59,805 nucleotides of DNA from NCBI GenBank assembly GCA_028868305.1, contig JAGWUS010000017.1:1-59805 (forward strand). The letters run 5' to 3'. The notes beneath the pieces are model-generated. The model was not told where the DNA came from. It did not search any database and worked only from the letters and a program-made list of their open reading frames with translations. A program made the position numbers and the translations under genes. Below, in pieces: positions 5,184 through 59,805 of this stretch (position 1 is the first letter of the stretch; each line of letters begins with the position of its first letter). This DNA is from Burkholderiales bacterium. Its GTDB lineage: Bacteria; Pseudomonadota; Gammaproteobacteria; Burkholderiales; Burkholderiaceae_C.

Positions 5184-5237
5184 AAATTGGCCTCTAGCCC
5201 CCGTGGAATGTGCGCAAGCAGCTATCTATTTAGTAGC
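5184..5237 (+). repeat. 54-bp dispersed element, copy A
   Basis: This copy starts AAATTGGCC, carries the core TAGCCCCCGTGGAATGTGC and ends in the 17-nt hairpin GCTATCTATTTAGTAGC. It lies between the convergent hsdR and oxidoreductase genes; its last bases encode the final residues (ATK) and TAG stop of the oxidoreductase on the opposite strand. Confidence 0.8.
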
Positions 5238-6266
5238 AACCTGCAGCACCAGCTTGCCGAAGTTTTCGCCGTTGAACAGCTTGAGCAGGGTTTCTGGGAA
5301 GGTCTGCAGGCCGACCACCACGTCTTCCTTGCTTTTCATGCGCCCGTCCTTGATGTAGCCTGCCATCTCGGCAATCGCCAGGTGGTAGCGGTCGGCGTAG
5401 TCGAACACCACGATGCCTTCCATGCGGGCGCGGTTGACCAGCAGGCTCAGGTAGTTCTTGGGGCCTTGCACGGCGGTGGTGTTGTTGTACTGGCTGATAG
5501 CGCCACAGATGATGATGCGCGCCTTGCGGTTGATTTTGGCCAGCACGTCGTCGAGGATTTCGCCGCCCACGTTGTCGAAGTAGATGTCCACGCCCTTGGG
5601 GCAGTGCTCTTTGAGTCCGGCGCGCACCGCGCCAGGGCCGGCCTTGTAGTCGATGCAGGCGTCAAAGCCTAGCTCCTTGACTACCCACTCGCACTTGGCG
5701 GCGCCACCGGCAATACCCACCACGCGGCAACCTTTGATTTTGGCCATCTGGCCTACGGTCTGGCCCACGGCGCCGGCGGCACCGGACACCACCACGGTCT
5801 CGCCGGGCTGGGGCATGCCCACGTCCATCAGGCCAAAGTAGCCGGTCATGCCAGGCATGCCCAGCACGTTGAGCCATTGGGTCAGGGTGCCTAGTGACAA
5901 GTCGATTTTTACCAGGCCATTGCGTTTGATGTCTTCCTGCGCAATGGTGATGTATTCCTGTACGCCAAATGTGGCGCTTGCATGGTCACCCACGGCAAAC
6001 TTCGGGTTTTTTGAGGCGATCACCACACCCACGCCACCGGCGCGCATGACTTCGCCAATGCCCACGGGCGGTATGTAGCTCTTGCCTTCGTTCATCCAGC
6101 CACGCATGGCCGGGTCCAGGGATAGGGCCAGGGTCTTGAGCGTTACGCCGCCCTCAGCCGGTTCGGTGACTGGCTCGGTGGTGTGGCTCCAGTCGGTGGC
6201 TTTGGGTATGCCCACAGGGCGGGCGGCCAGACGAATCTGGTGGTTGACGAGGTTGGCAAGTGACAT
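5226..6266 (-). CDS. Zinc-independent NADPH-dependent oxidoreductase (CurA/leukotriene B4 dehydrogenase-like MDR)
   Basis: About 346 residues of the medium-chain dehydrogenase/reductase superfamily that reduces alpha,beta-enones with NADPH. The N-terminal block LALSLDPAMRGWM and the nucleotide-binding stretch VSGAAGAVGQTVGQMAKI followed by GCRVVGIAGG are characteristic; FDNVGGEILD and the C-terminal FPETLLKLFNGENFGKLVLQV match the CurA/YncB group. I chose ATG 6266 (MSLANLVNHQIRLAARP) because family members start there and a GGAG site precedes it; the longer frame adds 33 unrelated residues. Monocistronic. The last three codons and stop come from dispersed element copy A. Substrate cannot be read from sequence. 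Confidence 0.88.
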   Translation of the reverse strand: MSLANLVNHQIRLAARPVGIPKATDWSHTTEPVTEPAEGGVTLKTLALSLDPAMRGWMNEGKSYIPPVGIGEVMRAGGVGVVIASKNPKFAVGDHASATFGVQEYITIAQEDIKRNGLVKIDLSLGTLTQWLNVLGMPGMTGYFGLMDVGMPQPGETVVVSGAAGAVGQTVGQMAKIKGCRVVGIAGGAAKCEWVVKELGFDACIDYKAGPGAVRAGLKEHCPKGVDIYFDNVGGEILDDVLAKINRKARIIICGAISQYNNTTAVQGPKNYLSLLVNRARMEGIVVFDYADRYHLAIAEMAGYIKDGRMKSKEDVVVGLQTFPETLLKLFNGENFGKLVLQVATK

Positions 6267-6376
6267 GGGGGGCTCCGCTGCAAAAGAATGAAGTGGCGGA
6301 TGGTAGCCCTGCCCAGGGCCTTGCGGCGTAGCCGAGGTGACAGACCCTCGGGGGGCTGTGGTCAAGCCGCCAGCGG

Positions 6377-6988
6377 CTACATGGCGATGTAGCGACCCGC
6401 GCGGTGGTTGGTGGCCAGCGTCTGGTTGAGTGCCACGGCGCCCAGTACCGATAGCGCAATATGCCGCCAGTCGGTCAGGGCAAAGGCGCCCAGCACGATG
6501 GCGCAGTCCAGCGCCATCTGGATGCGGCCGGCACGCCAGCCAAAGCGCTCCTGCAGGTACAGCACCAGCACATTGAAGCCGCCCAGGCTGGAGCGGTGGC
6601 GAAACAGGATCAGCATGCCAGTGCCCATGAGCAGGCCGCCAAGCACTGCAGTGAACAGTGGATTGAGGTCGCCGAAATGCACCAGTTGCGGCACCAGATT
6701 GCTGAACACGGCCATCAGGCCCACGGCTGAAAAGGTCTTGAGGGTGAATGGTTTGCCCATGCGCTTCCAGGCCAGGCCGTAAAAGGGCAGGTTGATCAGG
6801 AAGAAGACCAGGCCGAAATTCCAGCCGGTGGCGTAGTGCAGCAGGAATGCCACGCCGGCTGTGCCGCCGGTCAGCAGGCCGATGTGGCCGAACATGACAA
6901 TACCCAGGGACACAAACAGGGTGCCGGTGACCAGCGCCTGCACGTCCTCGACAAGGCCGTGTCGCAGGGCTGGCTGTTCAGCGCCCAT
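6377..6988 (-). CDS. YitT/DUF161-family membrane protein
   Basis: About 203 residues with five or six hydrophobic helices and the conserved HIGLLTGGTAGVAFLLHY and FNLVPQL-type blocks of the YitT family, whose members lie in the cytoplasmic membrane and whose function is not established. It lacks the C-terminal cytoplasmic DUF2179 domain of larger homologues. The ATG at 6988 overlaps the TGA of the upstream hemerythrin gene by one base (TGATG), so the two are translationally coupled. The longer frame to 7177 reads through the hemerythrin gene in another frame and is not credible. Confidence 0.8.
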   Translation of the reverse strand: MGAEQPALRHGLVEDVQALVTGTLFVSLGIVMFGHIGLLTGGTAGVAFLLHYATGWNFGLVFFLINLPFYGLAWKRMGKPFTLKTFSAVGLMAVFSNLVPQLVHFGDLNPLFTAVLGGLLMGTGMLILFRHRSSLGGFNVLVLYLQERFGWRAGRIQMALDCAIVLGAFALTDWRHIALSVLGAVALNQTLATNHRAGRYIAM

Positions 6989-7506: not shown

Positions 7507-7633
7507 GGCGGGGTTCTCCAGAGATAGGCGCAGAGCTTATCCACTGCGCGGACGCGATCAGTTGACCCACGTCATGCCGGCATCATAAATCGTTCACCAA
7601 GTGACCTTAGCTGGGTGAGGGAGGCGGCAGATA

Positions 7634-8380: not shown

Positions 8381-8420
8381 GCCACCGCGCCAGCCAGATG
8401 GCGCACGGGGACAAAAAAAC

Positions 8421-9461: not shown

Positions 9462-9467
9462 TCTGCC

Positions 9468-9486
9468 AGGGCCAACGGCCCTGGCC
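9468..9486. terminator. Stem-loop between convergent genes
   Basis: CCAGGGCC-AAC-GGCCCTGG forms a perfect 8-bp stem with a three-base loop just behind the cyclase stop and ahead of the convergent thiolase stop. There is no clear T-run, so termination is plausible but not assured. Confidence 0.5.
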
Positions 9487-9494
9487 GCGGCACT

Positions 9495-11575: not shown

Positions 11576-13281
11576 GATTCTGCTCCTTCAACCAGAAAAC
11601 GCACCCGGCGCACGCCGTTCCATTCGTCGGCGTCCAGCCGGAAGGCCAGCGTGACCCGGGGAGGCAACTGCTCGGTGTGGCCAAACCAGATGCCATCGAC
11701 CGGCGTACCCTGGTGCTTGAGTTTGAGCTGCAGATGCTTTTCGCCCACCAGGCGTTGGGAGATGACCTCCACCTCCTCGCTGAAGGTGGGTGCGGCAAAG
11801 CCCTGGCCCCACACCTCCTTGTGCAGCGTGTCCACCAGATCGACGCGCAGGTACTGGGATTCAAGCGCCCCATCGGTGTCCAGGCGGCGGGTGAGGGTGG
11901 CGGCGTCCAGCCACTCTTGCGCCACTTCGTTGAGCCCTTGCTCAAAGTCGTCCAGCCGTTCCTCAGGGATGGTGCAGCCTGCTGCCATGGCGTGGCCGCC
12001 AAAGCGCAGCAGCACGCCGGGGTAGCGCTTGGCCACCAGGTCCAGCGCATCGCGCAGATGAAAACCGGGAATGGAGCGGCCCGAGCCTTTGAGTTCATGT
12101 TCCTTGCCCGGTGCGGCGCTGGCGGCAAATACAAAGGCCGGGCGGTGCAGCTTGTCCTTGATGCGGCTGGCCACAATACCCACCACGCCTTCGTGGAAGT
12201 CGGGGTCGAAGACGCAGATGGCCGGCGGCGGTTCGTCGCCTTCGTCAAACAGGCTCTCGGCAATCACCATGGCCTGCTCGCGCATGTCGCCCTCGATCAC
12301 GCGGCGCTCGCGGTTGATGCCGTCCAGCATTTTGGCGAGTTCATCCGCACGCGCCGGGTCGTCAGTCAGCAGGCATTCAATGCCCAGCGTCATGTCACTC
12401 AGGCGGCCTGCGGCATTGATGCGCGGGCCCAGTGCAAAACCGAAATCAAAGGTGGTGGCGGTGCTCGCGTTGCGCCCCGATGCTACAAAAAGACTAGCTA
12501 GCCCTGCAGGCATGGCAAGGGCGCGCACCCGTTTTAACCCTTGGGCGACAAGGCGGCGGTTGTTGGCGTCGAGCTTGACCACGTCCGCCACCGTGCCGAG
12601 CGCTACCAGCGGAAGAAGCGTGTCCAGCTTGGGTTGTGTGGCCGCATCCAGCACACCGCGGTTGCGGAGTTCTGAACGCAAGGCCAGCAAGACGTAGAAC
12701 ATCACCCCCACGCCGGCCATCGACTTGCTGGCAAAGGTGCAACTGGGCTGGTTGGGGTTGACGATGACATCGGCGTTGGGCAGTTCCGCGGCAGGAAGGT
12801 GGTGGTCCGTCACCAGCACCTGCAGCCCCAGCCGCTTGGCATGGGCCACGCCATCCATGCTGGCAATGCCGTTGTCCACCGTGATCAGCACGTCGGCGCC
12901 CTGGTCCTTGACGCGCTGGGCGATGGGGGCGGTCAGGCCGTAGCCATCCACAATGCGGTCGGGCACCAGGTAGCTCACATGTTGGGCACCGAGCAGGCGC
13001 AAACCGCGAATCGCCACAGCGCAGGCGGTGGCGCCATCACAGTCGTAATCGGCCACGATACACAGGCGCTTGTTCTCTGCAATGGCGTCGGCCAGCAGGA
13101 CGGCAGCGCGGTCTGCGCCCAACAGCGTGCCGGGCGCAAGCAGCTTGCCCAGCGCATCGTCCAGTTCGGCGGTCGAGGTGACGCCACGCGCTGCGTAGAG
13201 GCGGGCCAGCAGAGGGTGGATACCGGCCTGCTCCAGTGTCCATACGGAGCGGGGCGGGACGTCGCGGGGAATGATCTTCAT
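11572..13281 (-). CDS. recJ: Single-stranded-DNA-specific 5'-3' exonuclease RecJ
   Basis: About 569 residues. DHH-family metal motifs are in order: VADYDCDGATA near 80, TVDNGI near 135, TDHHLP near 158, then the DHHA1 motif region with GGHAMAAGCT near 405, and the C-terminal OB domain. RecJ resects 5' ends in recombination and mismatch repair. ATG 13281 overlaps the upstream gene by ATGA, and the downstream SDR starts in its stop codon. A region at 12483-12499 contains a weak match to the hairpin of the dispersed element, noted under rejected items. Confidence 0.97.
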   Translation of the reverse strand: MKIIPRDVPPRSVWTLEQAGIHPLLARLYAARGVTSTAELDDALGKLLAPGTLLGADRAAVLLADAIAENKRLCIVADYDCDGATACAVAIRGLRLLGAQHVSYLVPDRIVDGYGLTAPIAQRVKDQGADVLITVDNGIASMDGVAHAKRLGLQVLVTDHHLPAAELPNADVIVNPNQPSCTFASKSMAGVGVMFYVLLALRSELRNRGVLDAATQPKLDTLLPLVALGTVADVVKLDANNRRLVAQGLKRVRALAMPAGLASLFVASGRNASTATTFDFGFALGPRINAAGRLSDMTLGIECLLTDDPARADELAKMLDGINRERRVIEGDMREQAMVIAESLFDEGDEPPPAICVFDPDFHEGVVGIVASRIKDKLHRPAFVFAASAAPGKEHELKGSGRSIPGFHLRDALDLVAKRYPGVLLRFGGHAMAAGCTIPEERLDDFEQGLNEVAQEWLDAATLTRRLDTDGALESQYLRVDLVDTLHKEVWGQGFAAPTFSEEVEVISQRLVGEKHLQLKLKHQGTPVDGIWFGHTEQLPPRVTLAFRLDADEWNGVRRVRFLVEGAES

Positions 13282-14269: not shown

Positions 14270-15526
14270 ATGCGTATTCCCTATGAGTTGTTGATTGGCT
14301 GGCGCTACACACGTGCGGGCCGCACTACCCGGCGTAACGGGTTTATTTCGTTCATTTCGGGCGTGTCCATGCTGGGTATTGCCCTGGGCGTGGCGGCACT
14401 GATCATTGTGCTGAGCGTCATGAACGGCTTTCAGAAAGAGGTGCGCGACCGCATGCTCGGTGTGGTTTCGCACGTGGAGGTGTACGCCACCGGCGGGCAG
14501 GCCTTGCCCGACGTGGAAAAAACCCTTGCCCAGACACGTGCCCATCCCCAGGTGATTGGGGCGGCTCCCTTTATCGCTGCCCAGGCCCTGCTGGCCCGGG
14601 GTGAGGACATGAAGGGCGTGATGGTGCGTGGCATTGACCCGGCGCTGGAGCCTGAGGTAACCGACCTTGCCGCAGGCGCCCAGTCCGCCGTGCTGGCCAG
14701 GCTGGTGCCCGGTGAATTCGGCGTGGTGCTGGGCTCCGAATTGGCCCGTACCCTGGGGGTTCGCACCGGTGACAAGGTGACGCTGGTGGCGCCCAGTGGC
14801 CAGGTGACCCCGGCGGGCGTGGTGCCGCGGCTCAAGCAAATGACGGTGGTGGGCACCTTTGACTCGGGCCACTATGAGTACGACTCGACCATGGTGTTTG
14901 CCCACTGGGTAGACACGGCCAGGATTTTTCGTCTGGAAGGCCCCACCGGTGTGCGGCTCAAATTGCGCGACCTGCACCAGGCCCGCTCGGTGGCAGACGA
15001 TCTCAGTCGCACGCTGGGCCCCGATGTGACGGTCCGTGACTGGACCCGCCAGAATCGCACCTGGTTTTCCGCGGTGCAGGTCGAAAAACGCATGATGTTC
15101 ATCATCCTTACCCTCATCGTGGCGGTGGCGGCTTTCAATCTGGTCAGCACCCTGGTAATGACAGTCACCGACAAGCGCGCCGACATTGCGATTCTGCGCA
15201 CCCTGGGCGCGAGTCCGGGCAGCATCATGGGCATCTTTGTGGTGCAGGGCGCCATGGTGGGCGTGATTGGCACGCTGGCCGGGCTGCTGCTGGGCTTGAG
15301 TGTGGCTTTCAATATTGATGTGATCGTGCCGGCGCTGGAGCATGCGCTGGGGGCGAGCTTTCTGCCCAAAGACATTTACCTCATCAGCCGCATGCCCAGT
15401 GACCCACAGCGTGGCGATATCGTGCCCATTGCGGTCATCGCGCTGGTGATGGCTTTTGTCGCCACGCTGTATCCCAGCTGGCGCGCGTCCCAAGTGAACC
15501 CTGCGGAGGCGCTCCGGTATGAGTGA
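14270..15526 (+). CDS. Lipoprotein-releasing ABC transporter permease (LolC/LolE/LolF type)
   Basis: About 418 residues: an N-terminal membrane helix ([20 protein letters not shown]), a periplasmic domain of about 220 residues, then three C-terminal helices ([18 protein letters not shown] and following). It releases lipoproteins from the inner membrane to LolA. Ends [15 protein letters not shown] as LolC/E proteins do. It overlaps lolD by eight bases. Only one permease is present in this operon and tatD follows lolD directly, so it may work as a homodimer in the LolDF manner, or a second permease lies elsewhere; no gene symbol is therefore given. Confidence 0.92.
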
Positions 15527-16202
15527 AGTTCTGTTGCAATGCCGCGGCCTGACCAAGCGCTTCCAAGAAGGGCGGCTGGATGTGACCGTGCTGCAGGGCG
15601 TTGATCTGGATGTGTTCCGAGGCGAGACTCTGGCGATTGTCGGAGCTTCGGGTTCAGGCAAGAGCACCTTGCTGCACCTGTTGGGTGGGCTGGACGCGCC
15701 CACCAGTGGCGCTGTCACCCTGTGTGGCCAGGCACTGGCTAGTTTGAACCCGGCAGAGCAGGGACGTCTACGCAACCAGCACCTCGGTTTTGTCTACCAG
15801 TTTCACCATCTGTTGCCGGAATTCAGTGCACTCGACAATGTTGCCATGCCATTGACAATTCGGCGTGCAGCCCCCGCAGAATGTGCACAGACAGCTATGA
15901 AAATGCTAGCGGCTGTGGGATTGACCGACCGCGCCCAGCACCGCCCGGCAGAGCTGTCTGGCGGCGAGCGCCAGCGGGTGGCGATTGCCCGGGCGCTGGT
16001 GACCCGGCCCGACTGCGTGCTGGCGGATGAACCCACCGGCAATCTGGACCGCAGCACGGCGGACGGTGTGTTTGCGCTCATGCTGCAACTCGCCCGCGAG
16101 CAGGGCACAGCCTTTGTGCTGGTCACGCACGACCAAGCCCTGGCAGCACGCTGCGACCGGCAACTGCAACTGGTACAGGGCAGACTGCAGGCTGCCCTGT
16201 AG
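15519..16202 (+). CDS. lolD: Lipoprotein-releasing ABC transporter ATPase LolD
   Basis: 227 residues. Walker [10 protein letters not shown] near 42, the LolD-typical [21 protein letters not shown], signature [15 protein letters not shown] near 147 and Walker [12 protein letters not shown] near 167. Energises the lipoprotein-releasing complex with the overlapping permease gene. Residues about 114-131 ([18 protein letters not shown]) are encoded by a copy of the 54-bp dispersed element; the segment length equals that of other LolD proteins, so the element stands in place of, rather than in addition to, the family sequence. Confidence 0.95.
15857..15910 (+). repeat. 54-bp dispersed element, copy B (inside lolD)
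   Basis: It reads AATTCGGCGTGCAGCCCCCG, then AGAATGTGCACAGACA, then the hairpin GCTATGAAAATGCTAGC. The copy is translated in frame within LolD between the Q-loop region and the signature motif. Confidence 0.7.
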
Positions 16203-16211: not shown

Positions 16212-17066
16212 ATGCGATGGATAGACACCCATTGCCATCTGGATGCGCCAGAGTTTTTTGTGCCAAATTGGCCGCTAGCCCCCGAAATACGTGCGCAGGC
16301 CGCTATCAAAGGTGTAGCGAAATGTGTCATTCCTGCGGTGGAAATCAGCAATTTTGACGCGGTACGCATCCTGGCGCATGCGCTGGGTGACAGCTATTGC
16401 CTGGGTATTCATCCTCTGTATGTGGCGCGCGCATCGGAAGCGGACCTGACAGCGCTGGATGCGCAACTCGCGCAGCACTGTAACGATCCGCGCCTGGTGG
16501 CAGTCGGGGAGATCGGACTGGACTATTTTGTGCCAGCACTCAACCAAAGTCCTCTGCGCGAGATGCAGGAGTTTTTCTACCGCGAGCAGCTGAAACTGGC
16601 CCGCAAATACGGTTTGCCGGTGGTCCTGCATGTGCGGCGCTCGGCGGACCGTTTGCTTAAGGGTTTGCGCGAGGTGGGGGGCGGTGCGCCCTGGTCGGGC
16701 ATCGCCCATGCTTTTAATGGCAGCGAGGTACAGGCGCAGGAATTTCTCAAACAGGGCCTCAAGCTGGGTTTTGGTGGGGCGGTCACCTATGACCGCGCCT
16801 TGCAGCTGCGCCGCCTGGCCAGTGCACTTCCGCTGGATGCGCTGGTGATGGAAACCGATGCGCCGGACATTGCACCGCACTGGCTGTATGCGACGGCAGC
16901 GCAGCGCGCGCAAGGCATCCAGCAGCCGCGCAATGAACCTGGAGAATTGCCACGCATTGCTGCTGTAGTGGCCCAGTTGCGTGGCATCTCTCTGGAGGCG
17001 CTGGCGGACGTCACTACGCGCAATGCCTGCGCGGCCTTGCCGAAACTGGCCGCGCTGCTGGTATAA
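16212..17066 (+). CDS. TatD-family metal-dependent hydrolase (DNase-like)
   Basis: 284 residues with the TatD metal ligands: THCHLD (residues 6-10), the GEIGLDYF glutamate near 102, VVLHVRR histidine near 139, IAHAFNG near 163, and METDAPDI aspartate near 216. Family members are 3'-5' DNases or proofreading deacylases. Follows lolD by nine bases and precedes the spermidine-synthase-like gene by six, so one operon. Residues about 18-36 (VPNWPLAPEIRAQAAIKGVA) are encoded by the dispersed element and are roughly four residues longer than I expect for the family there. Confidence 0.92.
   Translation: MRWIDTHCHLDAPEFFVPNWPLAPEIRAQAAIKGVAKCVIPAVEISNFDAVRILAHALGDSYCLGIHPLYVARASEADLTALDAQLAQHCNDPRLVAVGEIGLDYFVPALNQSPLREMQEFFYREQLKLARKYGLPVVLHVRRSADRLLKGLREVGGGAPWSGIAHAFNGSEVQAQEFLKQGLKLGFGGAVTYDRALQLRRLASALPLDALVMETDAPDIAPHWLYATAAQRAQGIQQPRNEPGELPRIAAVVAQLRGISLEALADVTTRNACAALPKLAALLV
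16265..16318 (+). repeat. 54-bp dispersed element, copy C (inside the TatD-family gene)
   Basis: It reads AAATTGGCCGCTAGCCCCCG, a slightly divergent middle, GTGCGCAGGCC, and the hairpin GCTATCAAAGGTGTAGC. In frame near the N-terminus of the protein. Confidence 0.78.
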
Positions 17067-46016: not shown

Positions 46017-46694
46017 CTATGTCTTTGCGGCAGCCATGGGCAGCCACGCCTTGCATTGCGGGAAGTTGCTGCAGGCCCAGAACTGCGCGCCGCCGCGCGA
46101 GGGGGTGCGCTCCTCCATCTTGATGCCGCACCGGGCACAGGTGGGGCGCCAGTATTCGCCCTCATAGGCCACGTCCAGCAGTTCCTGCTGCTGCGCGGGT
46201 GTGCGCTTGGCAATGAGTGCCAGCAGGCCGGTGTTGTCCAGCGCATTGATGCTGTGGGCTTTGGCAAAACGCAAGGCGCTGGGGGTGTAGGTGGCAACGG
46301 TGGCAAAAGTGCCGCGCGTGAGCTGGTGGGATGCCAGCAGGTTCACAAACTCACGCAACTCCGTCACCCCCACGTTTTTGCCCAGCCAGTGCCTGCACAG
46401 CAGGATGGCTACCGGACCTTTGGCGTTGCGGCTGTGCAGCCAGATCTCGGCGCCGCCATCCGGACTGCGCGGTTGCAATTGTGTGCGAAAACCGGCTTGT
46501 TCAAACAGCCTGGCGCACACCGCCTCAAAACGCCGCCACTCAATAGAGGAAAACACATCGGCACTCCATTGCGTGGCCACTGGGGGTATTTCGCTCACCC
46601 TGGCGTTTTTGGAACCCGAGAAAAGCGGTGCCCCCAAGGCCTTGAAGGCCTGGGTTACGCGATTGGTGCGTTTGGGCGCCGTTTCCTCGGCCAT
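46017..46694 (-). CDS. Mrr-type nuclease paralogue with altered catalytic site and zinc ribbon
   Basis: About 225 residues, from MAEETAPKRTNRVTQAFKA. It aligns along its length with the protein at 53419-54351: WRRFEAVCARLFEQAGF, then PDGGAEIWLHSRNAKGPVAI, RGTFATVATYT, and the C-terminal topoisomerase-like zinc ribbon CARCGIKMEERTP ... CSNFPQCKAWLP. In the paralogue the nuclease core reads GVDIW and VQCKHW; here it reads GAEIW and LLCRHW, so the catalytic lysine is arginine and the glutamine is lost. It also lacks the two membrane helices. Probably catalytically dead but still able to bind nucleic acid. Confidence 0.85.
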   Translation of the reverse strand: MAEETAPKRTNRVTQAFKALGAPLFSGSKNARVSEIPPVATQWSADVFSSIEWRRFEAVCARLFEQAGFRTQLQPRSPDGGAEIWLHSRNAKGPVAILLCRHWLGKNVGVTELREFVNLLASHQLTRGTFATVATYTPSALRFAKAHSINALDNTGLLALIAKRTPAQQQELLDVAYEGEYWRPTCARCGIKMEERTPSRGGAQFWACSNFPQCKAWLPMAAAKT

Positions 46695-46707
46695 GATCTT
46701 TTGCTTG

Positions 46708-47328
46708 CTACACGCCAAATTTGGCGTAGTACGCCAGCACAGCCGGGTTTTGGGCAATACGCTGCATGTGGGCATTGAGCGCCGGGGCCACCTTTTCCAC
46801 CAGATCGGTGGGCACATGGTCCAGGCGGCCGGAGTTCAGGCCACGCACATCCACAAACACCTTGAGGTCGGCTACGGTCAGGCGGCCATCGGCAAAGTAT
46901 TCGCCGCCATGCGCCAGCAGCCGGCGCTGCAGCCAGCCCAGGTACAGGGGCATGGAGCTGTTGACCAGCGCCACGCGCGCCGCCTTCTGCTCGTCGCCCT
47001 TCATGCTGAAGGTGGGGCCGAGCTTGACGCCCGCTTCTTCCACCACATACGCCACCTCATCGCACAGCAGGGCCTGGTAGGCATCGGTGGGGTACAGGCC
47101 GGCCAGCTTGCCCGCATAGCGCAGGAGGGCGTCGCTCTGCGTCACCAGCGTGCCGTCCACATGCAGCACCGGCACCTGGCCAAAAGGCACCGTCTTGCGC
47201 ACCTCGGCAAACTCGGGGAAGGTAAAGCGGTGGTCTTCAAACGCCACACCGCCAATGGCCAGGGCCAGGCGGATCGGCTCGGCGCGGCCACCGTGAAAGT
47301 CGAAATACGAGAGTTTGAGTTGGGCCAT
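46708..47328 (-). CDS. Glutathione S-transferase (sigma/prostaglandin-D-synthase-like)
   Basis: 206 residues. LKLSYFDFHGGRAEPIRLAL has the catalytic Tyr of the sigma-like group, GQVPVLHVDGTLVTQSDALL the glutathione-binding segment, and LTVADLKVFVDVRGL the C-domain motif. ATG 47328 chosen, with the longer frame lacking a ribosome site. Starts 13 bases upstream of the Mrr paralogue in the same direction. Confidence 0.9.
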   Translation of the reverse strand: MAQLKLSYFDFHGGRAEPIRLALAIGGVAFEDHRFTFPEFAEVRKTVPFGQVPVLHVDGTLVTQSDALLRYAGKLAGLYPTDAYQALLCDEVAYVVEEAGVKLGPTFSMKGDEQKAARVALVNSSMPLYLGWLQRRLLAHGGEYFADGRLTVADLKVFVDVRGLNSGRLDHVPTDLVEKVAPALNAHMQRIAQNPAVLAYYAKFGV

Positions 47329-48030: not shown

Positions 48031-48064
48031 GGCCTGCAGTGTAAATCGTGCGGCATTGAATGCG

Positions 48065-48118
48065 AAATTGGCCTGTACCCCTCGCGGAATATGCACAAGC
48101 AGCTACGAAAAACGTAGC
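48065..48118 (+). repeat. 54-bp dispersed element, copy D
   Basis: AAATTGGCC start, CCCCTCGCGGAATATGCAC core, and the hairpin GCTACGAAAAACGTAGC, whose stem extends to six pairs. It lies 17 bp beyond the stop of the DUF924 relic. Confidence 0.85.
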
Positions 48119-48238
48119 AAACACAAGACAAAGACTTAGAACGAAGACCCCGGCTCGCTCAGAAACGCCAGCTCCTACGCGCTGGAGGTACGCCCCAGAA
48201 TCGCGTTGCGGTGGGGGTAGCGGCCAAAGCGGTCGATG
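48065..48238. repeat. Direct repeat, left copy (DUF924 3' end plus element)
   Basis: About 174 bp covering element copy D and the coding end of a DUF924 gene. The right copy is 49158-49330. The two enclose the DUF2442 relic and the DUF4160-DUF2442 pair. Confidence 0.75.
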
Positions 48239-49122: not shown

Positions 49123-49157
49123 GGGCCAAGTTTAACGATATGAGGCGGTTATGTGTC

Positions 49158-49211
49158 AAATCTGCCTCTGGACCCCGTGGAATATGGGCAAGCAGCTACT
49201 AAAACCGTAGC
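49158..49211 (+). repeat. 54-bp dispersed element, copy E
   Basis: AAATCTGCC start, GACCCCGTGGAATATGGGC core and hairpin GCTACTAAAACCGTAGC. Lies next to the second DUF924 tail. Confidence 0.82.
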
Positions 49212-49227
49212 ATTCGCAAGACGGAAC

Positions 49228-49330
49228 CTAGAAAGAAGACCCTGACTCGCTCAGGAAAGCCAGCTCCTCCGCGCTGGAGCTGCGCCCCGGAATCGCGTTG
49301 CGGTGCGGGTAGCGGCCAAAGCGGTCGATG
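49228..49330 (-). pseudogene. DUF924 C-terminal fragment, second copy
   Basis: IDRFGRYPHRNAIPGRSSSA followed by EELAFLSESGSSF and TAG. It is the same end as the relic at 48136 but without the internal stop. There is no upstream part: the next gene on this strand is the mmeI-like gene. Confidence 0.82.
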
Positions 49331-49367: not shown

Positions 49368-52292
49368 TCAGGCTGCTTTGGCTTTGCGCTTGCCTTTGGC
49401 GGGTGCGCCAGGCAGCAGGCTGGTGTACCGCTGGTACAGCTCAAACAAAAACGCCACGCGCTCGGCGTCGCTCTTGTAGCTTTTCTTGCCGCCGCTGGCT
49501 TCGTAGGCTTTGTCCACGGCAGCGTCCAGCTTCTGGTGCGCCTTGAGCAGTTCGGGCGGCATGGTGAGCGGATCGTACAGGTCCGCCAGCGTGGCAGGCT
49601 GCGCTCCGGACTGGAACTTGGTGCGCACGTCGAGCACGGCTTGTGCTGCAATTTCGATAGCGGCTTGCGCAGGTTGGACGCGGGCTGCAGGCTGATTTGG
49701 CTTGAAATTCTGTGTAAATTCGGGCCAGGGGAAGTTGTTGTAGACGATATCTTTGGAATAACGGTAATCGCTTTTTAGACGGCCACATGTGTAACGAACC
49801 CAGGCGTTATGCATAGTGCTCGAAAGAATGCCGAAGTGGAGCAGAGTTGCGTTCGGCGCCAGCTTCACGAGGTTGCTGCAGAGCGTAGCTGGCTGTTCAA
49901 ATCCAAAGGGTATGAAGGCCCGCCGTTCTGACGAAACCTCGGGCAGCACCAAGTAAGGCGCAGTCGGCATGTTTTCCACGTGGAAACGGGTGGGTGTCGA
50001 TGCCAACTTTTGGGTCGGTGGACTTTTGCTAGCGAGTCTTGATGCTCTGACCGCCTGCACACGTTTCATGCATTCTGGCATCGCACGCAACTCGGCTGGT
50101 GGGCAATCACCTAGCCATAGGCACCAACGTTCGTAGCCGTTCAAGAACTCTATCGAGCCAAGCCAACGGCGGAACCATCTTTCACTTGCAGGCTCCGCAG
50201 CGATGAAGGCCAGCTTCTCTTCAGTGGTAAACAAATAGTTTCCATCGTCAATCGGCTTATTGCCAATGCCAATCTGCGGTACGTTGCAGACAGGGTTCGA
50301 CCGGCGGGGTAGTACTACATCTGGCCCGTCAATCAAATACGGGTTGATATTTTTCGCAGCGACTTGGTGGGGCTCGCCCTTGATGTCGTCGTACTCGTAG
50401 ATGATCTTGCCGGGGCGGTCTTCCAGGGCAAAGCCAATGATCACGCAATGCACGGCTGCTTTGCCTGAAGCTTCGTTGCTCCAACTGAAGGTGCGGTGCG
50501 CAAAGTGAATATGCGCTCCTTGTGCCAACATCCAGCCCCACAGCACGCCTACCTGTTCACCCTGGGTAATGCTGTTGGTGGATACAAACGCCACCCGAGC
50601 CGAATGCGTCACGCCAACGCCAGAAGGCGAGTGTGGGGTGCCCGATGGGCGCGATTTCGGAGCCGCAGGCTCATGAGCGCCCAGTGGGCACCCCGCGATC
50701 GCCGTTGCATCGCAATGAAGGTAGTGCGCAGCCTTCACGTACCACGCCGCCACAAAGTCCAGCAATCCGGCGTTGTCAATGCCAGAAAACACAGCACGTG
50801 TGTCTTCGCGCTGCGTGTCGTCCATGAACTTGGCGCCCACAAACGGTGGATTCCCCAGCACATAGCTGCACCGCTGCGCTGGCAACACCTCATTCCAATC
50901 CAGCCGCAACGCATTGCCATGCACCACATGCGGCGAAGTGCGCAGCGGAATGCGCGCAAAGTACAGACCGAACTCCTCGCTCACCTGCAAATTCATCTGG
51001 TGGTCCATCAGCCACATGGCCACCTGCGCAATCTGCGCCGGAAACTCTTCAATCTCGATGCCGTAGAACTGGTCCACATCAATGCCGATGAGCTGGTGCA
51101 CGTCCACACTCAACTGGCCGGTGACATGCGATGCGCGTAGCACCGCCAGCTCCAGCGCGCGCAACTCGCGGTAGCTGATCACCAGAAAATTGCCACAACC
51201 GCAGGCCGGATCAAAAAACGTGAGCGTGCGCAGCTTCTTGTGAAACTCAAACAGCTTGTTCTTGTTGCTTTTGACCTTTTCAAACTCTGCCCACAGCTCA
51301 TCCAGAAACAGCGGCTTGATGAGCTTGAGGATGTTTTCTTCCGATGTGTAATGCGCGCCCAGGTTGCGGCGCGCCTTCTCGTCCATGATGCTCTGGAACA
51401 GGCTGCCAAAGATGGCCGGACTGATGGCAGACCAGTCCAGCGCGCAGGCATCGAGCAGGGCCTCGCGCATGGCGCTGGTGAAGTCGGCCATGGGCAGCAC
51501 TTCGGCAAACAGCTTGCCGTTGATGTACGGAAAGGCCGCTACCTGCTCATCCAGCGCCTTGCTGCGTTTGTCGTCGGGCGTGTTGAGCACCTGAAAGAGT
51601 TGCGCAAGCCGCGAGCCCAGATCGGAGCCGTCCACCGCCGTACGTTCTTCAATGAAGGTGCGGAACACTTGCGCGGGCTGGAAGATGCCGGTGTCGTCGG
51701 CGAACAGGCAAAACAGCAGGCGCACCAGCAGCACTTCCAGCGGGTGGTCGGTGTAGCCGCTGGCTTTGAGTGCATCGTGCAGCTTGCCTAGTGCGGAGGC
51801 GGCCTTGATGTTGACAGGGTCTTGCGCCTTGATCTCCAGCGCCTTGTAGCCCGCCACAAAGCCAAAGAGCTTGATGTGCTTGTGCAGGTCTTTCAGCGCA
51901 AATTCAACCGTCTCGTTGGTCGTGAGGCGGTGCACCCGGAAACGCGCAAAGTCGCAGACGATGATGATTTGCGGCAGATCACGCTCCGCAATACCAGGAA
52001 AGTACGACAGTGCTTGGGTGAGCGCCGCGTCCAGATTTTTGCCCCGCGACTTTTGCTCCACCAGCAGCATGCCGGGCCAGAACAGGTCTACAAAGCCGTC
52101 CGTCTTGGCGTTGGCACCGGGCAGCTTTTTGACGGCATGCTCAAACGTGGCAACGCGCTTGTCGGTGATGCCGAAGATTTCAAAGAAGTCGATCCAGAAC
52201 GGCTTGGCCTGGCTGTCCTCATGGGCCGCGTCGGCCCAGGTGCGGCTGAAGGTGAGCGCGCGGGATTTGATTTCGTTCCAGGACAGGGGCAT
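49368..52292 (-). CDS. MmeI-like single-chain restriction-modification enzyme (type IIL/IIG)
   Basis: 974 residues combining nuclease, methyltransferase and target recognition. N-terminal PD-(D/E)XK block DGFVDLFWPGMLLVEQKSRG near 66-85, helical spacer, methyltransferase motif I FDPACGCGNFL near 365, motif IV LGNPPFVGAKF near 480, and a C-terminal TRD region with LVLPEVSSERRAFIPFGF; the end is Lys-rich. A 20-odd-residue low-complexity insert (PLGAHEPAAPKSRPSG, near 535) is encoded by a 60-bp palindrome and separates HCDATAIA from RVAFVSTNSITQGEQVG. Frame intact. It probably cuts and protects DNA at one asymmetric site. Confidence 0.92.
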   Translation of the reverse strand: MPLSWNEIKSRALTFSRTWADAAHEDSQAKPFWIDFFEIFGITDKRVATFEHAVKKLPGANAKTDGFVDLFWPGMLLVEQKSRGKNLDAALTQALSYFPGIAERDLPQIIIVCDFARFRVHRLTTNETVEFALKDLHKHIKLFGFVAGYKALEIKAQDPVNIKAASALGKLHDALKASGYTDHPLEVLLVRLLFCLFADDTGIFQPAQVFRTFIEERTAVDGSDLGSRLAQLFQVLNTPDDKRSKALDEQVAAFPYINGKLFAEVLPMADFTSAMREALLDACALDWSAISPAIFGSLFQSIMDEKARRNLGAHYTSEENILKLIKPLFLDELWAEFEKVKSNKNKLFEFHKKLRTLTFFDPACGCGNFLVISYRELRALELAVLRASHVTGQLSVDVHQLIGIDVDQFYGIEIEEFPAQIAQVAMWLMDHQMNLQVSEEFGLYFARIPLRTSPHVVHGNALRLDWNEVLPAQRCSYVLGNPPFVGAKFMDDTQREDTRAVFSGIDNAGLLDFVAAWYVKAAHYLHCDATAIAGCPLGAHEPAAPKSRPSGTPHSPSGVGVTHSARVAFVSTNSITQGEQVGVLWGWMLAQGAHIHFAHRTFSWSNEASGKAAVHCVIIGFALEDRPGKIIYEYDDIKGEPHQVAAKNINPYLIDGPDVVLPRRSNPVCNVPQIGIGNKPIDDGNYLFTTEEKLAFIAAEPASERWFRRWLGSIEFLNGYERWCLWLGDCPPAELRAMPECMKRVQAVRASRLASKSPPTQKLASTPTRFHVENMPTAPYLVLPEVSSERRAFIPFGFEQPATLCSNLVKLAPNATLLHFGILSSTMHNAWVRYTCGRLKSDYRYSKDIVYNNFPWPEFTQNFKPNQPAARVQPAQAAIEIAAQAVLDVRTKFQSGAQPATLADLYDPLTMPPELLKAHQKLDAAVDKAYEASGGKKSYKSDAERVAFLFELYQRYTSLLPGAPAKGKRKAKAA
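50635..50694. repeat. REP-like palindrome inside the mmeI-like gene
   Basis: Arms GGGGTGCCCGATGGGCGC (50635-50652) and GCGCCCAGTGGGCACCCC (50677-50694) pair with two mismatches; the loop holds an inner hairpin GAGCC-GCA-GGCTC. The 60-bp unit is a multiple of three and is read through in frame. Confidence 0.82.
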
Positions 52293-53338: not shown

Positions 53339-53358
53339 TGTATTGGCAATTGGTATCA

Positions 53359-53412
53359 AAATTGGGCTCTAGACCACGTGGAATATGCACAGACAGCTAC
53401 TAAAAGCGTAGC
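53359..53412 (+). repeat. 54-bp dispersed element, copy F
   Basis: AAATTGGGC start, GACCACGTGGAATATGCAC core and hairpin GCTACTAAAAGCGTAGC, seven bases from the stop of the membrane-anchored Mrr gene. Confidence 0.85.
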
Positions 53413-53418
53413 AATCTG

Positions 53419-54351
53419 CTACCGCAGAGCCGCCGCCATCGGTAACCGCGACTTGCACCTGGGATAGTTGCAGCAACCCCAAAACTGCGCGCCGCCTTTG
53501 GCAGGCGTGCGCTCCAGCATCTTGATGCCGCAACTGGCGCAGGTAGGGCGCCAGTATTCGCCCTCATAGGCCACGTCCAGCAGTTCCTGCTGCTGCTCTG
53601 GTGTGCGCTTGGCAATCAGTGCCAGCAGGCCTTTGCCATCCAGCGCATTGATGCCGTTGTCTTTGGCGAACTGCTGTGCGTCAAGGGTGTATGTGGAAGT
53701 GGTGGCATAGGTGCCGCGCTGCAGCTTGTGCGAACTCATCACGCCGAAGAACTCGCGCATTTCCTTCACGCCTACGGCTTTGCCCTGCCAGTGCTTACAC
53801 TGCACCACGGCCACCGGACCTTCGGCGTTGCGGCTGTGCAGCCAGATGTCTACGCCGCCATCGGCACCGTGGGATTGGGACTTGGTTTCGAATCCAGCCT
53901 GTGCAAACAGCTTCTCGCATACCGCTTCGAACCGCCGCCACTCAATGGCGGCAAAGACGGCAGGGCTCCAGTTAGTTGCGGCCTCGCGTGTCTTTGGCGC
54001 TGGTGAGAAGGGCTTCCTTGGGATTACGCCGATTTCGTCTCGAATGTCGCGCAGCACTGCACTCTCGTTGGGCACCGATGCACGTGGAGTAAGGTGAGGC
54101 AAGGGTGCGATTCGGGTGACTTTGGCTTTGGTGATGTGATGGATGCCCAATAGCACTACTCCCGCTGTCAACGCCATCCAGCCTGGTATGCGAAGGGCCG
54201 AAGCCACGGAATTCATCATGGGTGAAGCGCCGAAGAGTAAGGGAGCGACCAGCATTCCAACGCCCAGAGCGCAAAGCCTCAAGCCCTTGTCCTGCATGGT
54301 GTTGAGTGCGCGACTCTTCCGCTTGGTGGACCTTGACCGTGCCATGGTCAT
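53419..54351 (-). CDS. Membrane-anchored Mrr-type restriction endonuclease with zinc ribbon
   Basis: 310 residues from ATG 54351. Two hydrophobic segments (LCALGVGMLVAPLLFGA and GWMALTAGVVLLGIHHI) near 25-75 are followed by a linker and a Mrr_cat nuclease: WRRFEAVCEKLFAQAGF, SHGADGGVDIWLHSRNAEG (catalytic Asp), AVVQCKHWQGK (Gln-x-Lys), then the zinc ribbon CASCGIKMLERTP ... CCNYPRCKSRLP. The ATG overlaps the TGA of the PLD gene by one base, so the two are coupled. Probably cuts foreign or modified DNA near the membrane. A degenerate paralogue is at 46017. Confidence 0.9.
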   Translation of the reverse strand: MTMARSRSTKRKSRALNTMQDKGLRLCALGVGMLVAPLLFGASPMMNSVASALRIPGWMALTAGVVLLGIHHITKAKVTRIAPLPHLTPRASVPNESAVLRDIRDEIGVIPRKPFSPAPKTREAATNWSPAVFAAIEWRRFEAVCEKLFAQAGFETKSQSHGADGGVDIWLHSRNAEGPVAVVQCKHWQGKAVGVKEMREFFGVMSSHKLQRGTYATTSTYTLDAQQFAKDNGINALDGKGLLALIAKRTPEQQQELLDVAYEGEYWRPTCASCGIKMLERTPAKGGAQFWGCCNYPRCKSRLPMAAALR

Positions 54352-55067
54352 CAAACCGGATGAAAGTCCTGCGGCCACAAGAAATAGGGGCCAAAGCGTC
54401 CTTTTGCCACGAACTCGACACCGGCCTTTTCACCCTTGGGTGTCAGCACATGCTTGTCACCGTTGAGCCCCAAATAGCCTTGCTCGGTGGCACGGCTCAG
54501 CAGATCGGCAGCCTTCATCCCCAACTTCTGCGCCAGCTTGCCCGATGGCAGCTTGTCACTTGCGGCGTCACCCTCATCGCCAGTCTCTGCAGCAGAGTTG
54601 GCAGTGGCAGGTTCATCGACAACGCGCTCCAAGGAAATGCGCACTTCTTCGCTGATGCGAATAATGCGCTGTGCTTCTTCGTACGCGTCTTTGTAAAGCT
54701 GCGCATCTTCACTGCGCTGAATCAGAATGCCCATCTCGTTGTTGTTGACTTGACTGAACTCGTACAGATTCAGGCTGGTGATGATGCACAGCTCTTCGTT
54801 CATGTAGCACTTGGCATGCAGGTTCTTGCAGAAGCTGGTGCGAACGTAAGTCATGCCGCGCAGCCACTCAATTTCCTGCGGCTGCAACTCGCTCTTGCCG
54901 TAGACGATGCGCACGTCAATCTTCAGCCGGTTCTTGTCCGCCAGCAGTTCCTTCATGCGGTCATTGAGCTTGAGGAAAGGACTGATCAAAATCAAGCGGT
55001 CTGATGCACTTTTGATCAACTCTTCGAGGTGGTAGTTGGTGCCGGTGGTCGCTAGAAACTTTGCCAT
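54351..55067 (-). CDS. PLD-family protein with C-terminal winged helix
   Basis: 238 residues. The N-terminal half is a single phospholipase-D-like domain: LIKSASDRLILISPFLKL, then NLHAKCYMNEELCIITSLNL and NNNEMGI, i.e. HxK, an acidic residue, SLN and NE. The expected Asp of HKD is Glu. Dimeric single-PLD proteins include nucleases such as BfiI and Nuc. The C-terminal LPSGKLAQKLGMKAADLLSR and KGRFGPYFLWPQDF looks like a winged helix seen with phage regulators. Operon with the membrane-anchored Mrr gene; likely DNA-acting. Confidence 0.82.
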   Translation of the reverse strand: MAKFLATTGTNYHLEELIKSASDRLILISPFLKLNDRMKELLADKNRLKIDVRIVYGKSELQPQEIEWLRGMTYVRTSFCKNLHAKCYMNEELCIITSLNLYEFSQVNNNEMGILIQRSEDAQLYKDAYEEAQRIIRISEEVRISLERVVDEPATANSAAETGDEGDAASDKLPSGKLAQKLGMKAADLLSRATEQGYLGLNGDKHVLTPKGEKAGVEFVAKGRFGPYFLWPQDFHPV

Positions 55068-55187: not shown

Positions 55188-55189
55188 GG
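55146..55189. repeat. mmeI 5'-end repeat, relic copy
   Basis: The 44 bp are identical to 52251-52294; this copy is the start of the 32-codon relic. Confidence 0.85.
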
Positions 55190-55201
55190 GTTGGATTTAA
55201 A

Positions 55202-55505: not shown

Positions 55506-55508
55506 GGC

Positions 55509-57356: not shown

Positions 57357-57499
57357 GGTTACGATTCTAGACGGCTACCTGTCGTGCCGCGTGTTCCGCG
57401 ACAGCATGCTGTGCCCGTTTGCGCTCACCCCGCTGGGCCTGCCGGTGGTGTGGCTGGGCGTGCCTGAAGGGCTGCGCCCAAGATAGTTGGGCTTGAGGG

Positions 57500-58093: not shown

Positions 58094-58141
58094 CCCTCTA
58101 TCCTAGTGCGCCACACCGTCTGCGGCAACCCAAAGCCGGGC

Positions 58142-58996
58142 TTACATAGCCCGGAAATGGTGGGTGTAAAGCCGGCTGATGCTGAGTTTGTCGCCGTGCT
58201 GGCGCAGAGTGAGCCAGGTTTTGCCGGTCTCGTCGCGGGTCACGCTGTCAATGGCGTCGGCCCGCACCACCGTGCCGCGGTGGATCTGCCAGAAGCTGGC
58301 GGGGTCGAGTTGCGGTAGCAGCTCTTTGAGTGGCGTGCGGATCAGGTACTCGTGGGTCGCGGTGATCACGCGCACATATTTGTCGGCCGCCTCGAAGTAC
58401 AGCACCTCGTCAATCGGCACCATGCGGATGCTGGCCCCCACACTGGCCTGGATCACCTTGAGGAGGGGTACGCTGGCGGTGGAATCGGCATTGGAGGTTG
58501 CAGGCGCGGCCATCAGCGCCCGCAACTGCGCCAATGCCTTTTCCATTTCCGCTTCCCGGCGTGCTTCAAAATTGATAGCTGCTTGAGAACGTCCCGCAAG
58601 GGCCAACTTCACTTTTGCCACAGTTTTTGCCAGACGGTCTGCCTGCACCGGCTTGAGCACATAGTCCACCGCCTGGGCATCAAACGCCTGCACCGCGTAC
58701 TGGTCATAGGCAGTGACAAACACCAGCGCGGGGAAGGGCTTGCCTGCGGGGCCGGCGGTCACCCATTGGTCGGCCAGCTCGGCGGCGGCTTCCAGGCCGC
58801 TCATGCCAGGCATGCGAATGTCAAAAAACAGCACGTCCGGCTGCAGTGCCAGCGCCTGCTCCACTGCGGAAGCACCGTCGCCCACGCTGACCAGCACCTG
58901 CAGCGCAGGCCAGGCTTGGGCCAGCTCGGCGCGCAGGGCCTGGGCCAGTAGCGGCTCGTCTTCGGCAATCAGGGCGGTGGCAGGTGTCTGGCTCAT
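58142..58996 (-). CDS. LytTR-family response regulator
   Basis: 284 residues. Receiver domain with AEDEP near 12, phospho-acceptor Asp in LFFDIRMPGMSG near 60, FVTAYDQYAVQAF and YVLKPVQADRL; then a linker and a C-terminal LytTR DNA-binding domain (VLYFEAADKYVRVITATHEY and the end LSISRLYTHHFRAM). Start overlaps the kinase stop (ATGA). Residues about 129-144 (LALAGRSQAAINFEA) are encoded by the dispersed element on the coding strand. Confidence 0.94.
   Translation of the reverse strand: MSQTPATALIAEDEPLLAQALRAELAQAWPALQVLVSVGDGASAVEQALALQPDVLFFDIRMPGMSGLEAAAELADQWVTAGPAGKPFPALVFVTAYDQYAVQAFDAQAVDYVLKPVQADRLAKTVAKVKLALAGRSQAAINFEARREAEMEKALAQLRALMAAPATSNADSTASVPLLKVIQASVGASIRMVPIDEVLYFEAADKYVRVITATHEYLIRTPLKELLPQLDPASFWQIHRGTVVRADAIDSVTRDETGKTWLTLRQHGDKLSISRLYTHHFRAM
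58563..58609 (-). repeat. 54-bp dispersed element, copy G (inside the LytTR regulator gene)
   Basis: On the minus strand: AAGTTGGCCCTTGCGGGACG then TTCTCAAGCA then the hairpin segment GCTATCAATTTTGAAGC. It is a shortened copy, in frame in the linker between receiver and DNA-binding domains. Confidence 0.7.
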
Positions 58997-59805
58997 GGCT
59001 TTAAGGGAATTGTGATGCTAGCCCTCGTGCCACCTGCATGGTCAGCTATGAATTCAATAGCAGCCGCAGTACCATACAGGGTGGCCAGGCGCTCGCGCAC
59101 CTGGCGCAGGCCAAAGCCGTTGCCGTCTGCGGGCGATGTGGCGGGGTCCAGGCCTTTGCCGGTGTCAGCCACTTCCAGTGTCAGCACACCAGCGGCGGCA
59201 AACGCACGCACCGAGATGCTGCCACCCTGCACCTGCGGCTCCAGCCCGTGCTGGATGCTGTTCTCCACCAGCGGCTGCAGCAGCAGGGGCGGCACGCTGA
59301 TCTGGCGCAGCGTGTCAGGCAGCTCCAGCGTGTAGTGCAGGCGCGGGCCCATGCGCACCGCCATCAGCTCCAGGTAGTCGCGCAGCCGGTCAAACTCCTG
59401 CGCCAGGGTGTGGCTGCCGGTGCGCGATGCGCTCAGCGTGGCGCGCAGGTAGGCAATCAGGTAGTCCAGCATGGTCTGGGCCCGCGCCGGGTCCACGCCA
59501 ATGAGCGCGCGCAGGTTAGCCAGGGTGTTGAACAGCATGTGGGGTTCGAGCTGCGATTCGAGCAGGCGCAGGCGGGATTCGGCTGCGTGGCGCTGCGCCG
59601 CCTCGGCACGCTCCCGCGCTTTGGCCAGTTGGGCGCGACTGGCCGCGAAGTAGGTCAGCACCGCACCCGTGACCAGACTCAGTGTGAGAAAGCCCCAGGC
59701 CATGCGGGGCTGGGCGTGCCAGTAGGCCATGCTGTCGGTGCCCAGCAGTGCGTCGGCCAATGCGGTGCCCAGCAGAAAACCGGCCACAGCGGCCAGCGGT
59801 ACGAT
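58993..59805 (-). CDS. LytS-like sensor histidine kinase, N-terminus outside the window
   Basis: At least 264 residues, open to the right edge (frame continues IVPLAAVAGFLLG). Two membrane helices remain (LGTALADALL, and WGFLTLSLVTGAVLTYFAAS), then the His_kinase domain with LESQLEPHMLFNTLANLRAL (the phospho-acceptor His) and an HATPase with LQPLVENSIQHGLEPQVQGG and VADTGKGL, GFGLRQVRERLATLYG. Partner of the overlapping LytTR regulator. Near its C-terminus, AAIEFIADHAGGTRASIT is encoded by the dispersed element. Confidence 0.92.
   Translation of the reverse strand: MVPLAAVAGFLLGTALADALLGTDSMAYWHAQPRMAWGFLTLSLVTGAVLTYFAASRAQLAKARERAEAAQRHAAESRLRLLESQLEPHMLFNTLANLRALIGVDPARAQTMLDYLIAYLRATLSASRTGSHTLAQEFDRLRDYLELMAVRMGPRLHYTLELPDTLRQISVPPLLLQPLVENSIQHGLEPQVQGGSISVRAFAAAGVLTLEVADTGKGLDPATSPADGNGFGLRQVRERLATLYGTAAAIEFIADHAGGTRASITIPLKP
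59008..59061 (+). repeat. 54-bp dispersed element, copy H (inside the kinase gene)
   Basis: On the plus strand: AATTGTGATGCTAGCCCTCG, a diverged middle, and the hairpin GCTATGAATTCAATAGC with a perfect GCTAT/ATAGC stem. In frame with the kinase on the opposite strand. Confidence 0.65.

Follow-up and report, generated by a model that had tools for sequence, protein, structure and literature searches.

A contig of 59,805 nucleotides from a Burkholderiales bacterium (JAGWUS010000017.1, assembly GCA_028868305.1; the window denotes this whole stretch) raises the question of what kind of element recurs along it, inside genes as well as between them. A preliminary description had listed eight copies of a dispersed 54-bp element, each ending in a 17-nt hairpin with base-pair changes in step, and had considered mobilisation in trans as well as an RNA or DNA site. 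Based on our data, the element is quite probably a DNA site read by a protein, and neither a mobile repeat nor an RNA hairpin. As a more specific and tentative reading, to which we assign a probability of roughly 40%, we propose a 67-bp chromosome-wide site that is predicted to be protein-bound and would label self DNA the way uptake signal sequences do. The comparisons rest on the source genome (G000), on Comamonadaceae bacterium OS-4 (G001) and on further relatives of the genus such as G007.

A 67-bp site in many copies

The element is longer than first described. A sequence-only model (R1) was built from 32 copies of the source genome, six of the eight listed copies among them, which align without gaps over 67 columns. 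The motif holds 53.8 bits in total, and outside it the information does not exceed 0.06 bits per column, except for two columns on the right with 0.22, so that the length of 54 bp has to be corrected. All eight of the terminal 17-mers are present at their positions and on their strands and R1 matches all eight copies, while a ninth copy, at 49643-49709 on the minus strand, had been missed. A second profile, again of 67 columns, was retrained on OS-4 matches, and 18 bits served as the threshold for a site. The internal spacing is fixed: 307 right-half matches in OS-4 have a left half at offset 0 in 231 cases and at another offset in 2, with no passing left half in 74, and wherever both halves pass, the distance is the same in 231 of 233.

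In the source genome there are at least 150 sites (the best 150 of 1874 candidates scored by R1, all with E values of at most 5.4e-8). OS-4 was searched over the first 2.0 Mb of its chromosome with the reversed sequence as control, which gave 236 matches of at least 18 bits with an own-genome profile and 299 with the retrained profile, vs none in the reversed sequence in either case; the latter number corresponds to one site per 6.7 kb. Among 24 relatives of the genus, matches occur in 12 and are absent from the other 12 (best 126 per genome at most scored), and in the family 97 of 299 genomes from 51 of 126 genera match (best 17 per genome at most scored). In a sample of the order, nine of 349 genomes match, seven of them from the same family (source genome included) and two from elsewhere with a single copy each, and 16 genomes from as many other families gave no match with R1. 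Named genomes were searched with a pattern as well, which yielded at least 117 stretches. Those listed include Rhodoferax, Polaromonas, Acidovorax, Curvibacter, Xenophilus, Giesbergeria, Comamonas and Paracidovorax, and further ones come from bins labelled Comamonadaceae, Burkholderiaceae, Burkholderiales, beta-proteobacterium or Pseudomonadota. The preliminary description of a dispersed, high-copy and conserved Comamonadaceae element without established function, with a DNA site among its options, therefore holds. At eight loci from Acidovorax, Giesbergeria and Polaromonas (L107, L121, L127, L128, L145, L163, L187 and L197), a right-half match follows a different upstream sequence that is alike among them; the three tested against Rfam (L107, L145, L163) gave no match.

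Sites are missing from 21 loci (71 kb) of site-free genus genomes, and the phage records searched gave no match. In two scans of plasmid records, 2 and 3 records match, and the OS-4 plasmid pOS401 carries 3 sites in the 300 of its 305 kb that were covered, vs 45 expected. One linear record of Rhodoferax antarcticus labelled as a plasmid (L370, NZ_CP019241.1), which may be a piece of chromosome, is denser in sites than the OS-4 chromosome, with seven in 23 kb.

With rough gene calls from a simple script, 142 of the 299 OS-4 sites lie within predicted genes, vs 82% of random 55-mers, 47 overlap a gene end and 110 are intergenic. Most of the in-gene sites (103 of 142) are at least 100 nt away from both gene ends. 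Both strands are used: 163 sites are on the plus and 136 on the minus strand, in-gene sites follow the gene strand in 66 cases and the opposite one in 76, and sites in tandem gaps are oriented with the genes in 28 and against them in 39 cases. Sites across a gene start, with 3 on the same and 13 on the opposite strand, speak against full strand neutrality; across gene stops the numbers are 21 and 14. This skew at gene ends may be due to the openness of reading frames. A replication-oriented site was considered and rejected, as 163 vs 136 is no clear strand bias over 2.0 Mb of nearly all positive GC skew. Divergent gaps hold fewer sites than their share (17 of the 110 intergenic sites vs 189 of 691 gaps), and the spacing is more even than in a context-matched null (coefficient of variation 0.79 vs 0.95, sd 0.05; none of 1000 as low).

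Old shared places and constraint on the DNA

The sites occupy the same places in different genomes. Of 68 copies in 400 kb of G007, 17 had no alignable flank pair in OS-4 and were dropped; 48 of the remaining 51 face a site at the same place, with flanks 69 to 96% identical. Of the three exceptions, one site was lost through substitutions with almost no change in length, a second (22 bits in G007) does not reach the threshold in OS-4 and the third faces a 1.4-kb gap. No clean insertion difference was seen among the 51. Likewise, 15 of 15 alignable copies of the source genome are shared with OS-4 (39 own copies tried, 24 dropped for want of alignable flanks, orientation not enforced); one of them, L017, with an identity of just 48%, is perhaps not truly orthologous. 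The named genomes contributed 114 copies, the OS-4 self match (L103) excluded, and 92 of these lacked alignable flanks. The other 22 comprise 15 same-strand sites, one opposite-strand site and six absences; the same-strand sites include three from Polaromonas, three from Acidovorax and one from Comamonas, and the comparison is only partly one across genera, since several members are Rhodoferax. A further set, A3, consisted of 62 of the 109 eligible named copies and 23 own copies. In two of the six absences OS-4 carries another palindromic sequence within an apparent site remnant. At OS-4 411346-411473 (aligned with L109 and L126), this sequence, unlike that of the site, has inverted ends and a length of about 104 nt.

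Orthologous sites of G007 and OS-4 are 80.8% identical, vs 53.3% between a G007 copy and the other OS-4 copies, and for 37 of the 48 G007 copies no OS-4 copy is closer than the orthologue. Among the OS-4 copies themselves, identity averages 52% and does not exceed 78% in the sampled pairs. Since orthologues are alike and copies within a genome are not, the copies are not being spread or homogenised. Present mobility is thus contradicted: the sites are old shared places that descend independently and evolve by substitution. Two alignments with Acidovorax (L166, L170), with 87-88 nt more on the site-bearing side than in OS-4, form a possible exception to an origin by point mutation.

How a site can sit inside a gene is best seen in lolD. 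The segment that holds the site in the window scores 21 to 63 bits in eight further site-bearing genomes; in seven genomes of the genus that carry 0-2 copies its score is -24 to -88, with random OS-4 67-mers averaging -100. In three of the latter (G008, G006, G014) it scores -24 to -35, which is above the 99.9% point of random 67-mers; some likeness hence remains there, by protein constraint or decay. Intermediate scores in G009, G012 and the 337R bin fit gradual substitution, and decay would look alike. Orthologues of the genus (at least 77% protein identity) show no alignment gap and no change in length, the G011 match (45%) being a paralogue, and the LolD of the window spans its family model nearly fully (residues 5-224 on positions 1-220 of 221). 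TatD of G000, G012 and G013 is four residues longer than that of OS-4 and G007; the same length is found in G008, which has no site there. An in-frame inserted palindromic element was therefore rejected for the two genes examined, as lolD has no added length and the site-free tatD of G008 is as long.

The site is conserved at the level of the DNA. Between G007 and OS-4, orthologous sites are 81% identical and their strong columns 88%, compared with 67 and 69% in the adjoining 40 nt. Over 23 in-gene pairs, the third base of a codon agrees at 224 of 272 positions in strong columns, at 90 of 134 in middling ones and at 64 of 100 in weak ones; in the flanks of the same pairs the count is 980 of 1519, or 65% vs 82% at the strong columns. 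Four conserved GC pairs at columns 25, 40, 49 and 64 are spaced by 15, 9 and 15 bases, all multiples of three, so that either strand can read them as alanine codons. Away from gene ends, one reading is indeed used by 39 of 48 same-strand and one by 42 of 56 opposite-strand copies, and in these favoured readings the four pairs are alanine codons. In such in-gene copies a constraint on the DNA takes precedence over the choice of codons, a point to bear in mind when protein evolution is read from these genomes.

Besides, the consensus differs between lineages. At column 27, the 15 sites shared by the source genome and OS-4 have C in the former in 15 of 15 cases and G in the latter in 12, and these counts carry a search bias: most copies of the source genome outside the window were retrieved with a query having C at this column, and 11 of the 15 pairs rest on such loci and four on the window. 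The window copies alone have C in nine of nine, and the G007/OS-4 comparison, which is free of this query bias, gives G/C 13 times and C/G never (sign test, p=0.00024). At column 42, A in the source genome faces G in OS-4 at nine of 15 sites and the reverse occurs at none. Copies that do not exchange sequence shift together, which suggests a shared reader.

Self mark, chromosome-spacing site or relic

In their number and even spread, on both strands, within and between genes, in their origin by point mutation, their lineage variants and their excess information, the sites resemble the uptake signal sequences (USS) of Pasteurellaceae and the DNA uptake sequences (DUS) of Neisseriaceae, and like these they are rarer in coding and in newly acquired (plasmid) DNA. 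Uptake sequences change through point mutations and are seldom found in recently acquired DNA (PMC7811141), and their abundance is explained by biased uptake together with recombination (PMC7811141, PMC1939737). By analogy, a predicted sequence-specific protein would read the 67-bp site, the sites would be kept near consensus by a bias in the uptake or exchange of DNA and subsequent homologous recombination, and the consensus would drift along with its reader. We give about equal weight for and against the broader claim of a new sign system, in which 67-bp sites every few kb with lineage dialects and a dedicated, predicted reader would serve either as an uptake-type self mark or for chromosome spacing.

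Several points weigh against a self mark. Known USS and DUS cores comprise about 9-12 bp, in contrast to 67 bp and about 54 bits here, and to our knowledge the motif is several times longer than any known uptake sequence. By our own arithmetic, about 13.7 bits would suffice to single out 299 sites in 2 Mb; the excess of the 53.8 bits over this figure may reflect the binding of several proteins or an old common origin of the copies. One site per 6.7 kb in OS-4 is also sparse against the uptake sequences of Haemophilus influenzae, given as about one per kb in PMC7811141. The column shifts may stem from a shared mutational bias, and our searches found no reader protein. Finally, the competence protein ComEC does not track the sites. 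A search for its family (PF03772) lists no match in the site-rich genomes G000, G012 and G020, and a search with the OS-4 protein gave nothing in the first two and two pieces in G020. The family is present in 24 of 24 other site-rich genomes tested, with the gene in three pieces in site-rich G043, and it is also found in 11 of 12 site-free genus genomes. A link to competence was therefore rejected in the sense that PF03772 does not separate site-rich from site-free genomes. The source genome, where ComEC was detected by neither search, has an assembly rated 99.99% complete.

Almost as likely as the uptake model, in our estimate somewhat below it and well short of even odds, is a chromosome-organising site, at which an architectural or topology protein would bind inside the cell and set domains of several kb; candidates would be a nucleoid-associated protein, a condensin loader or a gyrase-like wrapper. 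The even spacing, the use of both strands, the fixed internal spacing, the nearly site-free plasmid and the paucity of sites in divergent gaps would all fit. So would two A-tracts: TpA is depleted in the A/T stretches of columns 12-15 and 55-59, as in A-tracts, with 2 observed vs 38 expected at columns 56-57, and it is not depleted at columns 36-38. On the other hand, A/T shows only weak helical phasing (at 10-11 bp, 45 of 1000 shuffles are as strong), which was rejected as a feature, 54 bits are far above what recognition needs, and no candidate protein was found; the strongest period in the column information is instead 12.5, matched by 13 of 1000 shuffles. We know of no comparably large site-specific system in chromosome organisation. 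With regard to spacing, PMC1939737 recounts a claim by Karlin that uptake sequences are evenly spaced, and itself finds them less even than expected of compaction sites.

Improbable, in comparison, is an old transposed repeat that spread in an ancestor of the Comamonadaceae and has been kept since, whether as a repetitive extragenic palindrome (REP) moved by a REP-associated tyrosine transposase (RAYT), as a miniature inverted-repeat transposable element (MITE) or as an in-frame palindromic element. The high information and the patchy occurrence in 97 of the 299 family genomes, spread over 51 of 126 genera, would suit such a history, as would the two longer Acidovorax alignments. Like REP sequences, the site is short, high-copy, partly palindromic and restricted to a lineage, and the source genome has one Y1_Tnp gene. 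Nevertheless, there is no linkage: even with E values of up to 10 allowed, R1 matches nothing in L059, the locus with the one PF01797 gene found and 1.5 kb on each side of it, and PF01797 (RAYT subfamilies pooled) is present in 11 of 12 site-free genus genomes. A RAYT-mobilised REP was consequently rejected, as the repeats neither flank the Y1 gene nor follow its presence. Unlike REP sequences, moreover, about half of the OS-4 copies lie in predicted genes, and the missing insertion difference between G007 and OS-4, the clear loss by substitution, the full family length of LolD and the low identity among OS-4 copies all argue against transposition. Mobilisation in trans, as first considered, agrees poorly with sites at orthologous places in 48 of 51, 15 of 15 and 16 of 22 cases. 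Rickettsia palindromic elements are repeats inside protein genes with preferred frames that lengthen the proteins. The 67-bp site shares the location and the preferred frames, and differs from them in lolD, where length is unchanged, and in tatD, where the four additional residues also occur without a site. The beta-proteobacterial repeat element BRE, found in Bordetella and Comamonadaceae and partly within genes, is described in PMC3110155 as 75-91 bp long in Bordetella, 69% GC and often tandem, which is unlike the 67-bp site as far as a comparison by description goes.

A structured RNA element with a hairpin in transcripts is very improbable. Its arms GCT...AGC are nearly invariant, inverted GCGC blocks occur in many copies, the mean folding z is -0.96 (120 copies), and the upstream pairs 24-44 and 30-38 stand above most shuffles, of which 2 and 7 in 200 reach the same level, yet no more than 22 and 34% of the copies form them. 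The base-pair changes in step, from which a selected stem had been suggested, did not reappear. In 32 own copies the fifth pair reads UG 15, UA 7, CG 6, CA 2 and UC 2 times, without a single compensatory pair. Across the 299 copies of OS-4 there is little variation in pairs 1 to 3, and pairs 4, 5 and 6 form in 61, 69 and 36% vs 65, 71 and 41% in shuffles; for the pairs 52-62, 53-61 and 54-60, respectively 197, 193 and 198 of 200 shuffles were as high or higher. The strongest dependencies are those between neighbouring columns, and the proposed stem, with at least four of five pairs, appears in 98 of 299 minimum-energy folds. Both gene strands are used, and Rfam at its gathering threshold has no match in the window and six loci. 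The hairpin was thus rejected on covariation, strand use and folding: covariation does not go beyond chance, which takes away the stem, and the copies are far more than a few, which leaves the repeat in place. That the in-gene copies are a chance likeness of alanine-rich helices is hardly credible, given the conserved third codon positions, the empty reversed-sequence control and the DNA of low-copy relatives, which codes for similar LolD helices at about 45 bits or more below site-bearing genomes, even if the favoured readings do place alanine at fixed positions and the lolD segments of G008, G006 and G014 do exceed the 99.9% random point.

In the literature searches made, we found no description of the whole 67-bp site, its in-gene copies or its conservation; among the papers listed, PMC5217627 and PMC3110155 alone looked relevant, and a search for five core 11- to 13-mers gave, among the matches listed, none that concerns these bacteria. 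The earlier notice, in PMC5217627, consists of two unexplained word pairs, one of them present within copies of the 67-bp element: GCTTAT(N)5AAGCG with 114 copies in Acidovorax ebreus and ATAGCT(N)22CAAAAG with 125 copies in Polaromonas naphthalenivorans. There, both are mostly intergenic and seen in single genomes, and R. ferrireducens T118 is the richest in motif pairs. The first has 10 matches in the at least 117 named loci, five of which are the GCGC...GCGC block of a 67-bp site, and at least two of these five differ from the copies by which the loci were chosen. The spacing of the second fits columns 20-25 together with the GCTA arm; the form CTTTTG(N)22AGCTAT has no match in the 117 named loci, so that this motif is likely, rather than certain, to be the 67-bp site.

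Hundreds of long, separately kept sites with a concerted shift of consensus point to a protein that acts chromosome-wide. If the self-mark reading is true, this would be an uptake-type mark in a new family, with a far longer motif than any known; otherwise it may be a new kind of chromosome-spacing site. Identifying the reader would open up chromosome organisation or DNA exchange in a large environmental family, and would account for at least one of the motif pairs published in 2017 with no function assigned.

The window sites and their surroundings

Nine sites of the window exceed 18 bits with the OS-4-trained profile, and one sub-threshold match lies at 12480 (15.7 bits). R1 scores range from 66.5 to 49.1 bits in the order 5176, 48055, 49149, 53349, 16255 and 15852, all six of which belong to its training set. 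The first site (5173-5239, plus strand, 80.9 bits by the OS-4-trained profile) bridges an HsdR-like gene with its stop at 5179 and an oxidoreductase gene (5226-6365, minus strand) and overlaps the 3' ends of both. Two plus-strand sites follow within neighbouring genes, one at 15846-15912 in lolD (15519-16202), length unchanged and common to OS-4 and other genomes of the genus, and one at 16254-16320 in a TatD-family gene (16212-17066), which reads NWPLAPEIRAQAAIKGVA and whose protein is four amino acids longer than that of OS-4. The copy missed at first (49643-49709) lies in an MmeI-like gene (49368-52292, minus strand) on the gene's own strand, with 44.6 bits by R1 and 55.9 bits by the OS-4-trained profile, and another (53348-53414, plus strand) just beyond the 3' end of an Mrr-like gene (53419-54378, minus strand).

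Two weaker sites stand near the right end. The one at 58561-58627 (minus strand), within a LytTR response-regulator gene (58142-58996, minus strand), had been taken for shortened; it is rather a weak site of full length, with 15.8 bits by R1 (at 58562) and 30.8 bits by the OS-4-trained profile, and OS-4 has a 55-bit site at the matching place. The other (58997-59063, plus strand; 26 bits by R1, at 59000, and 44.2 bits by the OS-4-trained profile) runs opposite to the strand of a histidine-kinase gene (58993-59787, minus strand), and OS-4 has a 30-bit site at the matching place.

The remaining two sites, at 48054-48120 and 49147-49213 (both plus strand), form a local duplicated pair. Each is followed by a 105-nt repeat (48134-48238 and 49226-49330), the two copies of which are 90% identical and spaced about as the adjoining sites are; pieces of this repeat recur in site-free genus genomes too. 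Restriction- or defence-like genes are also present in the window, namely the type I HsdR-like gene (1688-5176, plus strand), the MmeI-like gene, a PLD-domain gene (54351-55067, minus strand) and two Mrr-like genes, the one mentioned above and another at 46017-46817 (minus strand), which are 80% identical over 300 nt of DNA.

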